64,000 bases of DNA from Arthrobacter sp. PAMC25284 (GTDB lineage: Bacteria; Actinomycetota; Actinomycetes; Actinomycetales; Micrococcaceae). Where the stretch lies: the NCBI RefSeq assembly GCF_019443425.1, contig NZ_CP080382.1:3348001-3412000 (forward strand), read 5' to 3'. The notes under the pieces are model-generated. The model was given only the letters and a program-made list of their open reading frames with translations, was not told the origin of the DNA and made no database searches. Positions 8,012 to 60,579 of the stretch are shown in pieces. A program made the translations under genes and the position numbers. Position 1 is the stretch's first letter. Every line of letters begins with the position of its first letter.

Positions 8012-8852
8012 ATGGGAATCCGTAAATATAAGCCGACTACCCCGGGGCCGTCGCGGCTCGAGCGTAGCGGACTTCACTGAAATCACGCGGTCGACGCCGG
8101 AAAAGTCGTTGGTACGTCCGCTGCCCAAAAAGGGCGGCCGTAACAACACCGGTAAGATCACGACCCGTCACAAGGGTGGTGGCCACAAGCGCCAGTACCG
8201 TCTGATCGACTTCCGTCGCCACGACAAAGACGGCGTCAACGCCCGCGTTGCCGAAATCGAGTACGATCCGAACCGTACGGCTCGCATCGCGCTCCTGCAC
8301 TACATTGATGGCACCAAGCGTTACATCATTGCCCCGAACAAGTTGTCCCAGGGTGACACGGTGGAGGCAGGTGCCGAGGCTGACATCAAGCCCGGCAACA
8401 ACCTGCCGCTGCGCAACATCCCGGTCGGTACCGTTATCCACGCAGTCGAACTGCGTCCGGGTGGCGGCGCCAAGATGGGCCGTTCCGCCGGCGCATCGAT
8501 CCAGCTCGTTGCCAAGGAAGGCCGTTTCGCCCAGTTGCGTCTGCCCTCGGGTGAAATCCGCAACGTCGACGTGCGCTGCCGCGCCACCGTCGGCGAGGTC
8601 GGCAACGCCGAGCAGTCGAACATCAACTGGGGTAAGGCCGGCCGTATGCGCTGGAAGGGCGTTCGCCCGACCGTCCGTGGCGTCGCGATGAACCCGGTCG
8701 ACCACCCGCATGGTGGTGGCGAGGGTAAGACGTCCGGTGGACGTCACCCCGTCAACCCGAACGGTAAGCGCGAAGGCCGCACCCGCCGTCCCAACAAAGA
8801 GAGCGACAAGCTTATTGTTCGTCGCCGTCGTACTGGCAAGAACAAGCGATAG
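8012..8852 (+). CDS. rplB: 50S ribosomal protein L2 (one-base frameshift as given)
   Basis: L2 is essential for subunit joining and peptidyl transfer. The true start is ATG 8012 ('[12 protein letters not shown]'), with GAGGAA upstream. As written, the frame closes after 22 codons. The downstream frame carries the rest, beginning '[19 protein letters not shown]' and ending '[10 protein letters not shown]'. Removing one G from the GGGG run at 8044-8047 gives '[13 protein letters not shown]' and a 279-aa protein of normal length, with the conserved '[13 protein letters not shown]' around the key histidine. An uninterrupted reading from 8109 gives only 247 aa and lacks the N-terminus. Loss of L2 is not survivable, so a sequence error is the best explanation. 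Confidence 0.93.
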
Positions 8853-8864
8853 GAGCCTGGACAC

Positions 8865-9146
8865 ATGCCACGCAGCCTGAAAAAAGGTCCTTTCGTTGAC
8901 CAGCACCTCTTTGTGAAGGTAGCCAGGGAAAACGAAAAGGGCACCAAGAACGTCATCAAGACCTGGTCCCGCCGTTCGATGATCGTCCCCGACATGCTCG
9001 GACACACGATTGCCGTACACGACGGACGCAAGCACATCCCCGTGTTTGTCACTGAGTCGATGGTCGGGCACAAGCTCGGCGAATTCGCTCCCACGCGGAC
9101 ATTCCGCGGCCATGTCAAGGACGACCGTAAGGGCAAGCGCCGCTAG
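8865..9146 (+). CDS. rpsS: 30S ribosomal protein S19
   Basis: Small-subunit head protein that forms a complex with S13 and contacts 23S rRNA in a bridge. 93 aa, usual length. Motifs are '[15 protein letters not shown]', '[52 protein letters not shown]'. It lies 12 bases after rplB with a GGAG site. Confidence 0.98.
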
Positions 9147-9184
9147 GCGCCTGCACTTACGTCAAAGACGAGAGAAGGAAAGCA

Positions 9185-9550
9185 ATGGAAGCCAAGGCAA
9201 TTGCGCGTCACATCCGCGTAACGCCTATGAAGGCCCGGCGCGTCGTCAACCTTGTTCGTGGTAAGCAAGCGAATGAGGCTCTGGCAATTCTGAAGTTTGC
9301 CCCGCAGGCAGCTTCGGAGCCGGTTTTCAAGGTAGTTCAGTCGGCAATCTCCAACGCCCGGGTCCTCGCGGACCGCGACGGCGTGGCGTTTGACGAAGGT
9401 GACCTCATCATCAGCGAAGCGTTTGTTGATGAAGGCCCGACCATGAAGCGGTTCCAGCCGCGAGCCCAGGGTCGTGCATTTCAGATCAAGAAGCGCACGA
9501 GCCACATCACCGTGGTAGTCGCTACCCCGGAGAAAGAGGAGGCTCGCTAA
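9185..9550 (+). CDS. rplV: 50S ribosomal protein L22
   Basis: Exit-tunnel protein with a long beta hairpin; the tunnel constriction is formed with L4. 121 aa. Shows '[25 protein letters not shown]', '[12 protein letters not shown]' and the hairpin '[29 protein letters not shown]'. The start follows AGAAGGAAAGCA. The stop TAA directly abuts the GTG of rpsC. Confidence 0.98.
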
Positions 9551-57928: not shown

Positions 57929-57957
57929 TCCAGGGCAGTCCCGGCCGGACCCGTGCG

Positions 57958-59373
57958 TCAGGTACGGCCGTGCCAGAGCCGGCCCAGCTCGGGGAACGCG
58001 GTCTCATAGCCGGCGATCAGCTGCCCGGCCAGGACGGCCGACCCCACCAGAGGGTGGTCGGCGAAGGCGGCGAGCGCAGCCTCCCGGCGGCCGGTGGTGG
58101 CCGCCTCCACGACGAGCCGCTCAACGCCCTTGATCCGCGCCATCAGCGCCAGCTGCTCCGGCCCCGGGGCTTCCTGCGGGAGCGGCGCCACGCCGTCGGG
58201 CGTTACCCGGCAGGGAACCTCGACGACGGCGTCCGCCGGCAGTCCGGGCACCGCTGGCCTGCCGCCAGCACGCGGGGCCGTGCCGGCCCCGGAGTCCGGG
58301 GCCGGCACGGTGTTGACGGTGTTCAGGATCAGCTCCGCTGCACCACCGCCGGACAAAGCCCGCATGGCCGCCAGCGCGACCCGTTCGTAGCCGCCGCCGA
58401 GGAGGTCGGTCTCGTCGCGGCGCTCGCCGTCCTGCCGGGCTTCGGCCAGATACCCCTCTTCCCGGGACCGGCGCGCGGCCTCCCAGAGCGGAAAGGCATC
58501 CGGCCCGGCCGCAGCCAGCCGGGGATAGAGTTCGGCCTGCTGCCGGTCAATGGATTCCCCACGGGTCTGGTCCGCAGCGCGCACGCCGGCCACGGCGCGG
58601 GCCGTCTCGTAGTAGTAGTACAGGTATTCGTTCGGCAGGGCGCCCAGCCGTGCCAGGAACTCCGGCGGGAAGAGCCGGCCTTCCTCGAAGCCGGCCAGCG
58701 CACCCGCGTCGCCGAGCAGTTCCGGCAACACGTCGCGGCCGCCGGATTCCAACCGGTTCAGCCAGCCCAAATGGTTCAGGCCGGAGTAGCCCACGCCGTC
58801 GAGCCGTCCTTCCGGGAGCGTGACGCCGGCAGCCAGGGCAGCACGGTACACCAGGCCGCTCGCGGAATCACAGATGCCGACTACCTTGCTGCCGAGAACA
58901 GGAACCAGCGCCTCGGTCACCATCCCGGCCGGATTCGTGAAGTTCAGCAGCCAGGCCCCGGGGCAGCTGCGCCGCATCTCGGCGGCCAGCTCCAGCATCC
59001 GGGGGATGGTGCGCAACGCATAGGAAATGCCGCCCGCCCCGGTGGTCTCCTGGCCGAGGATCCCCAGATCCAGGGCGATGCGCTCATCGGCGGTCCGGCC
59101 AGCCGTGCCCCCGGGCCGGATCGCGGCAAAGACCATGTCAGCGCCGTCGAGGGCCTCGGGCAGGGCGGCCGCAGAGCGGACCAGCGGGGCAGCGGATGCG
59201 GGGCCGGAGTGCCGGGCCAGGGACGCCAGGACCGCTTCGATGGCGGCCAGCCGGCCGGCGTCCACGTCGTACAGTACGAGCTCCCGGACCAGCCCGGCGA
59301 ACGGACCGGAGGACAGCGCCCGGTAGATCAACGGAACCCGGAAACCGCCCCCGCCTGCAATTGTGAGCCGCAT
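57958..59373 (-). CDS. GH4 family 6-phospho-beta-glucosidase
   Basis: NAD- and metal-dependent glycosidase for phosphorylated disaccharides. 471 aa. Rossmann start 'RLTIAGGGGFRVPLIYRAL'. Family motifs are 'GADMVFAAIRPGGTAGRTADERIALDLGILGQETTGAGGISYALRTIP', 'WLLNFTNPAGMVTEAL' and 'VVGICDSASG' (metal Cys), and 'SGLNHLGWL' supplies the His. A stretch at about 345-390 is Ala/Pro/Gly-rich and may be an insertion. Divergent from a PfkB sugar kinase, suggesting a sugar-use unit. No PTS genes are in the window. Confidence 0.9.
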   Translation of the reverse strand: MRLTIAGGGGFRVPLIYRALSSGPFAGLVRELVLYDVDAGRLAAIEAVLASLARHSGPASAAPLVRSAAALPEALDGADMVFAAIRPGGTAGRTADERIALDLGILGQETTGAGGISYALRTIPRMLELAAEMRRSCPGAWLLNFTNPAGMVTEALVPVLGSKVVGICDSASGLVYRAALAAGVTLPEGRLDGVGYSGLNHLGWLNRLESGGRDVLPELLGDAGALAGFEEGRLFPPEFLARLGALPNEYLYYYYETARAVAGVRAADQTRGESIDRQQAELYPRLAAAGPDAFPLWEAARRSREEGYLAEARQDGERRDETDLLGGGYERVALAAMRALSGGGAAELILNTVNTVPAPDSGAGTAPRAGGRPAVPGLPADAVVEVPCRVTPDGVAPLPQEAPGPEQLALMARIKGVERLVVEAATTGRREAALAAFADHPLVGSAVLAGQLIAGYETAFPELGRLWHGRT

Positions 59374-59486
59374 GCTGAGAGTCTATGCGGTGCCCCGGGA
59401 CCAGGGCCCGGTGACGGCATGCGGACAGGTCACAGGCCCACAACGCTTACTATCGCCGGGTACGGTGACGGCGTAATGTGCGATAC

Positions 59487-60579
59487 ATGAACGCGACCCC
59501 CACCCGGCGTTTTGACCCGCTCGCCGCTGTCCGCAGTCCCGCGGCGGAGGGACTCGACCTGCTCCTGACCGGCACGGTTTTCCAGGACATCATCTTCACC
59601 GGACTGCCGCATGCGCCGCGCCCCGGGACCGAAATCTGGAGCGAAGGAATGGGCAGTTGCCCCGGCGGGGTGGCCAACCACGCCATCGCGGCATCCCGGC
59701 TGGGGCTGCGGACAGGACTCGCGGCTGCGTTCGGGGACGACGGCTACGGCGACTACAACTGGAAAATCCTGGCGCAACAGGAACACGTTGACCTGTCCCT
59801 GTCCCGCCGTGTGCCGGGCTGGCACTCGCCCGTGACGGTCTCACTGAGCGTGGATAAGGACCGCTCGATGATCACGCACGGGCACCCGGCACCGGTGACC
59901 GCGACCGAACTGATCGGCACCCCGCCACCGGCGCTCGCGGCCGTGGCAGGGCTGGACGAGGAAATTGAACCGTGGGCCGTGGACGCCCAGAAAGCGGGGG
60001 TCCGGCTCTTCGGCGACGTCGGCTGGGACCCCACGGGCGCGTGGGCGCCGGCCCCGCCTGGAAAACCTGAAGTATTTCCACGCGTTTATGCCCAACCAGC
60101 GTGAGGCCATGGCGTTTACAGGCCGCGACGATCCGTGGTCGGCACTGTATGCGCTCGCGGACAAGGTTCCCGTGGCCGTTGTGACCCTCGGAGCCCAAGG
60201 CGCCATGGCCGTGGATTCCGTCACCGGCGAAGAGGAGTGGGTCCCGTCGCTTCCCGTCGCCGCCTACGATCCCACTGGAGCCGGGGACTGCTTCGGCGCC
60301 GCATTCATCCTGGGCTGCCTGGCCGGCTGGCCACTCGGGGACAGGCTCCGGTTCGCGAACCTGTGCGCCTCTTTGGCCGTCAAGGAGGTCGGCGGCTCGC
60401 TCGCCGCGCCGGGATGGGGCGACATCGCAGACTGGTGGAAACGGGTCAACGAACGCAAGGAACGTCAAAGCAGCCAGTGGCTGCGCCGGTTCCGCTTCCT
60501 GGAGGAGATCCTCGGAGATGTTCCGCCGGAGGCACAACGGCGTGCATCGGCGACTATCGCGCACCTTTCCGATGCTTAG
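59487..60579 (+). CDS. PfkB-family sugar kinase (one-base frameshift as given)
   Basis: Ribokinase-type kinase. Start ATG 59487 (GTG 59478 also in frame); TAATGT at 59474-59479 would give a nearly leaderless mRNA. Frame 1 has the first PfkB signature 'GSCPGGVANHAIAASRLGLRTGLAAAFGDDGYG'. Frame 2 has 'YFHAFMPNQREAMAFTG' and the second signature 'DPTGAGDCFGAAFILGCLAGW' with the catalytic Asp. Dropping one C from CCCC at 60052-60055 joins them as 'WAPARLENLKYFHAF', 363 aa. Substrate unknown; the divergent GH4 gene hints at a hexose or its derivative. Confidence 0.9.

Follow-up and report, generated by a model that had tools for sequence, protein, structure and literature searches.

One-base insertions at GGCC in a finished Arthrobacter genome: a probable footprint of DNA phosphorothioation

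The Dnd system of Streptomyces lividans marks GGCC, and methylation is known to cause errors at particular motifs in long reads. In S. lividans 1326 and Pseudomonas fluorescens Pf0-1, which belong to the GGCC class of Dnd phosphorothioation (PT) systems, dndA is divergent from dndBCDE; PMC12193691 places Arg-Xxx-Lys/Arg in the specificity loop of DndC from GGCC-modifying strains (Arg-Pro-Lys in S. lividans) and Thr-Arg-Ser in that of GAAC strains. According to the abstract of PMC8053081, no more than a small fraction of the consensus sites carries PT. In PMC9069010, PT disturbs both the nanopore signal and the read errors near the modified site, and it is detected through per-base read errors. 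Here we report that the deposited genome of Arthrobacter sp. PAMC25284 contains numerous one-base insertions at GGCC and encodes a Dnd system, and we propose that the extra bases arose, very probably, when a sequencer working on native DNA misread phosphorothioated GGCC. The insertions came to attention in a stretch of 64,000 nucleotides (nt), referred to below as the window (G000:C1:3348001-3412000, the whole stretch of DNA first analysed), which is part of a single-contig genome of 3.88 Mb (G000) with a completeness rating of 99.99%.

A preliminary description of the window had listed eight genes, each with one base too many in a GGGCC/GGCCC context. We aligned these eight sites and a possible additional one, at 20057, with the alignable loci of relatives at the DNA level (Table 1). 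The relatives' DNA bears out the extra base in rplB, rplR, secY, the aldo-keto reductase gene and pfkB. In a comparison with five relatives, the protein frames of rplR are broken at this point, and the Pfam matches of SecY, the aldo-keto reductase and the PfkB-family kinase are each divided between frames, with the insertion also called by the codon model described below. For merR, an insertion is probable: exactly one base fewer is found in two of three relatives and two fewer in the third, and pieces of MerR_1, each below the cut-off, occur in two frames. What holds for cpaB is that it is out of frame, as a minus-strand open reading frame (ORF) of 634 amino acids (aa) starts as CpaB and continues as a MinD/CpaE-like protein (PF16976 over its cut-off; TIGR03177 over residues 9-180 with 66.4 bits, below the cut-off of 71). 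The site in truA lies beyond the whole of the PseudoU_synth_1 domain, so that at most the tail is affected. Site 20057 has an extra base relative to three of five relatives in a first alignment and three of four in a second; the alignment is poor and the site uncertain. An rplC site with identical context is intact, as had been stated. G2+C2+ junctions of at least five bases, together with the positions up to some 4 nt away, make up about 6.0% of the window, and all eight listed sites are inside one. The motif was already in mind when these sites were picked, so that unbiased testing falls to a scan of the sampled genome and an alignment to the relative G018. The observation made in the window is correct, and it is larger in extent than first noted.

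The scan covered 61 pieces (the window, 40 spread stretches and 20 neighbouring stretches) with a union of 1.204 Mb, or 31% of the genome. We applied a codon-usage frame model that permits one-base insertions and deletions, and counted the motif if it was within 15 nt of a call. The model produced 99 insertion and 64 deletion calls; GGGCC/GGCCC was near 76 of the former, 11 of the latter and 12.4% of 20,000 random points. Applied to 790 kb from five relatives (G018, G010, G016, G012 and G014), the same model called 17 insertions, of which three had the motif nearby, and 37 deletions. Deletion calls thus occur in relatives as well and were treated as background. When the models were trained on each genome itself, the motif accompanied 50 of 69 insertions in the 40 spread stretches of PAMC25284, one of 13 in G018, neither of two in G010, the single one in G016 and none of one in G012. 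In the DNA alignment to G018 (313 kb, single-base differences with clean flanks), 29 of 49 extra bases of PAMC25284 adjoin GGCC, as do none of the 31 bases missing from it. The codon model misses many of these extra bases, which we refer to as scars. Of the eight listed window sites, three were called as insertions under the initial setting, and the counts are accordingly low.

Scars depend on the type of junction. Runs of at least four G were flagged in 25 of 660 cases (3.8%) if followed by CC, in one of 1396 if followed by C and a non-C base, and in one of 2515 (0.04%) if followed by A or T. Similarly, runs of at least four C were flagged in 28 of 626 cases after GG and in three of 3826 without a preceding GG. 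The flagged fraction climbs with both runs together (0.35% for 3+2, 3.2% for 4+2 and 6.8% for 4+3), and the extended run may be either the G or the C run, as seen in both the G018 alignment and the ribosomal RNA (rRNA) copies. The base 3' of the C run also affects the rate, with 27 of 312 sites flagged for T (8.7%), 23 of 930 for G and four of 346 for A (1.2%). Two other candidates were tried and rejected. Run length alone fails, as long runs of either base are spared if they are not part of GGCC. C-to-G junctions fail as well: CCGG accompanies 42% of the insertions called and 37% of randomly placed points, and CCCCGG/CCGGGG, flagged at 11 of 2346 sites, is flagged at none of 1290 after excluding those with GGCC within 12 nt. 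In this 31% of the genome, a count of frameshifts at the motif against other G/C runs therefore finds the motif enriched and the other runs spared. The motif as originally described, GGGCC/GGCCC, is indeed enriched, but GGCC describes it better, the error rate rising with longer G/C flanks.

The rRNA genes indicate what kind of event this is. The six 16S copies are identical save for one column, located in GGGCCCCC (strand opposite the rRNA), where a GGCC run has an extra C in one copy and an extra G in another, and the remaining four agree. The six 23S copies (L211-L216) differ in length at three places, all at GGCC runs, and their remaining differences are substitutions; two positions set L212 and L215 apart from the other four in this way, and another two columns set L212 apart. 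With two of the 16S copies deviating solely by one added base at a GGCC run, the extra bases are attributed to the assembly: they are almost certainly consensus errors in the deposited sequence, absent from the organism. A systematic sequencing or assembly error at the motif, suspected from the window, is strongly supported by the sampled scan, the G018 alignment, the rRNA copies and the run-type counts taken together. Scaled up to 3.88 Mb, the 76 calls of the codon model (1.204 Mb) and the 29 of the alignment (313 kb) point to roughly 250 to 400 errors, which is probably low.

Like the described systems of the GGCC class, the dnd locus of PAMC25284 has dndA divergent from dndBCDE (Table 1). 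The best NCBIfam model for DndA is TIGR03235, with 479.8 bits, 0.2 below the cut-off of 480. Unlike in those systems, dndB is in two frames. Its pieces match profile positions 2-151 and 141-355, each below the whole-protein cut-off, with GGGCCC at the break, and the break is probably another scar. A genuine defect in dndB, whose product regulates the system, would be expected to increase modification. The DndC specificity loop reads GYPAPRPKFRW and thus has the Arg-Pro-Lys of S. lividans. On this basis the system is predicted to act on GGCC, a core that matches the error motif. Arg-Pro-Lys is also present in the seven other over-cut-off loci of the class, so that this loop is usual there. A sequence search at 0.001 yielded no relative of DndC with a solved structure. 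With PAMC25284 included, DndC was found in one of 19 relatives, and over the cut-off in eight of 394 genomes drawn from the class and three of 395 drawn from the family. Downstream of the dnd locus, a type IV restriction-like protein of 1103 aa (L220:1270-4581) scores 1126.6 bits with PADLOC mREase_IV, and has a weak partial match, far below the cut-off, to a Dnd restriction model. No DndFGH-type restriction genes turned up among the few selected ORFs scanned.

According to the proposed mechanism, Dnd enzymes would swap a phosphate oxygen for sulfur in the backbone at part of the GGCC sites, and a native-DNA single-molecule sequencer would mishandle the sulfur-bearing phosphate and read one base too many in the adjacent run of G or C. 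Among the sites most prone to this, those with longer runs, a few percent would end up with the error in the consensus and with a broken reading frame. Such a failure would need both many marked molecules and an easily over-called neighbouring run, and failure of a few percent of susceptible sites fits partial modification combined with run susceptibility. If the platform was PacBio, one of the two platforms of the StoSoil series described below, general reasoning suggests that the cognate nucleotide may be sampled more than once ahead of a delayed incorporation, and that the base may thereby be duplicated. We infer both the sulfur in PAMC25284 DNA and its role in the over-call. PT detection by native nanopore and single-molecule real-time sequencing, as presented in PMC9069010 and PMC9521924, likewise relies on a modification that disturbs single-molecule reads at its motif. 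However, reads were compared there with a known reference at GAAC/GTTC, whereas here the effect appears to have become fixed as insertions at GGCC in finished assemblies.

A second dnd+ strain, Arthrobacter sp. StoSoilB13, displays the same signature. Forty plasmid records have a DndC match at 1e-60, and three of them were tested (StoSoilB13, Nonomuraea and Massilia). In 250 kb of a StoSoilB13 plasmid, the motif was at 20 of 26 insertion and none of 11 deletion calls, with a background of 8.7%. In 50 kb of another StoSoilB13 plasmid, examined once the hypothesis had been formulated, it was at all five insertions and none of three deletions. The run-type contrast is also present (seven of 127 runs of at least four G flagged before CC, none of 631 before A or T). 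Under a joint model, 22 of 29 insertions and none of 15 deletions in StoSoilB13 were at the motif. With the same model, the plasmids of sister strains StoSoilB3, NicSoilB8 and NicSoilE8 (100 kb each), on which DndC had no match at 1e-60, gave one of four insertions and none of eight deletions; the two flagged six-base sites in NicSoilB8 represent one event. As stated in PMC8262997, reads of the StoSoil series came from Illumina HiSeq 2500 and PacBio Sequel II, and from the project and accession series we infer that the sister strains share the platform of StoSoilB13. Two StoSoilB13 plasmids, NZ_AP024649.1 (1.0 Mb) and NZ_AP024648.1 (1.35 Mb), are listed in the plasmid collection with one and zero annotated features, respectively, unlike the sister plasmids analysed. 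The earlier idea that a modification triggers the error is supported by its strain-specificity and by this second strain.

Several points weigh against attributing the scars to phosphorothioation. To begin with, a scar is present in two of the six dnd+ genomes tested. The motif was at two of 18 insertion calls in G160, two of five in G213, two of six in Nonomuraea (whose DndC loop is KPK) and one of three in 50 kb of Massilia, none of which is a clear excess, the last three being small counts. It follows that dnd is not sufficient and that platform or polishing must also matter; a simple account would be that short reads in assembly or polishing had removed the scar from those four genomes. 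Moreover, PADLOC ranks SspA (423.6) over DndA (403.4) and PbeC (677.4) over DndD (640.1). The sister control consists of plasmids only, and the search for C5-methylases did not extend to StoSoilB13. Finally, the higher scar rate before T than before A (L108-L167 and the window) is not part of this account; it could reflect a site preference of Dnd or an effect of the sequencer.

The alternative that survives best is a generic platform or polisher error at junctions of G and C runs, independent of modification. The increase of the rate with junction run length would suit it, as would the four dnd+ genomes just mentioned. We nonetheless consider it improbable in view of how the error is distributed among strains. 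The 16S scar pattern was found in PAMC25284 alone among 394 class and 396 order genomes (overlapping draws; copies with a readable site were uncounted). The six-base sites GGGGCC, GGCCCC and GGGCCC were flagged in 52 of 1235 cases in its 40 spread stretches versus one of 1029 in 720 kb from four single-contig relatives (G010, G012, G016 and G018), in two of which, G010 and G012, DndC was not found. The sister plasmids, at one of four insertions versus 22 of 29 in dnd+ StoSoilB13, speak against a generic error in the same way.

The preliminary description had itself named a methylated base as a possible cause, which would point to an undescribed methyltransferase. Cytosine methylation at GGCC, as 5-methylcytosine (5mC) or 4mC, would share with the known methylation-linked errors of long reads a systematic consensus error tied to a motif, and PAMC25284 has two enzymes of the PF01555 family. 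However, no matching methylase was found, its errors are one-base run extensions and the predicted modification would be in the backbone. PF00145, the cytosine-C5 methylase family, had no match in this genome and was present in 14 of the 29 genomes searched. For both PF01555 enzymes, the best NCBIfam models, though below their cut-offs, are adenine-specific, and both enzymes carry a DPPF motif, which we take to be adenine-type. Enzymes of a probable adenine type would be unsuited as the source, GGCC having no adenine. One of them is a DNA methyltransferase of 413 aa (L201:1237-2478; G000:C1 about 1996674-1997597); among the four ORFs of at least 150 aa in its 3.9 kb locus there is no obvious restriction partner, the neighbours lying outside that search. 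The claim of an undescribed methyltransferase is thus not supported, and we regard cytosine methylation as a very improbable cause; this judgement takes in the variants of a methylase from an unlisted family and of one common to PAMC25284 and StoSoilB13.

A last alternative, that the extra bases arose by genuine mutation or that slippage or frameshift recoding makes them tolerable, has next to no probability: they do stand in the deposited sequence, but cells with broken genes for SecY and ribosomal proteins would not be viable, and the 16S copies, which differ only by the extra base where four agree, have no frame to recode.

Table 1. Insertion sites in the window (window positions) and genes of the dnd locus (positions on G000:C1).
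Feature	Position	Strand	Remarks
rplB, near start	8044..8049	+	GGGGCC; one base fewer in 5/5 relatives (DNA alignment)
rplR	14348..14353	+	GGGGCC; one base fewer in 5/5 relatives (DNA alignment)
secY	16539..16544	+	GGGGCC; one base fewer in 5/5 relatives (DNA alignment)
Possible extra scar outside the earlier list	20057..20062	+	GGGGCC
truA end	24418..24424	+	GGGCCCC; from the earlier list; single relative, badly aligned
cpaB	31961..31967	-	GGGGCCC; CpaB start fused to CpaE/MinD-like ORF; none of the relatives' DNA alignable
Aldo-keto reductase	49934..49939	+	GGGCCC; one base fewer in 17/17 relatives (DNA alignment)
merR-type gene	52516..52521	-	GGCCCC
pfkB-family kinase	60050..60055	+	GGCCCC; one base fewer in 4/4 relatives (DNA alignment)
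TIGR04096-type protein, adjoins dndA	1667839-1669113 (L219:11839-13113)	-	500 bits; 'phosphorothioation-associated putative methyltransferase'
dndA	1669114-1670289	-	Divergent from dndB
dndB	1670327-1671461 (L219:14327-15461)	+	Two overlapping frames
dndC	1671458-1672882		After dndB; TIGR03183 695.6 bits, cut-off 290.4
dndD	1672957-1674981		TIGR03185 589.1 bits, cut-off 245.85
dndE	1674971-1675324		TIGR03184 96.8 bits, cut-off 71.85

Among the literature matches listed, no title deals with phosphorothioate-driven insertion errors in finished assemblies, and among the papers searched none was found that joins phosphorothioa-, dnd and Arthrobacter. On balance, we lean towards the view that the trace of phosphorothioation can be read in finished public assemblies, as a run lengthened by one base where the motif is modified. 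What looks like a quality problem would then become the signal of an epigenetic mark. If this is true, dnd+ reference genomes that were assembled from native DNA and never polished with short reads contain hundreds of spurious pseudogenes, and studies of pan-genomes, essentiality and pseudogenes would inherit insertion errors at GGCC. By the same token, the target motif of a Dnd-like system would be readable from the deposited assembly alone, without raw data, and the signature could serve to scan public assemblies for active backbone modification and to read its motif.

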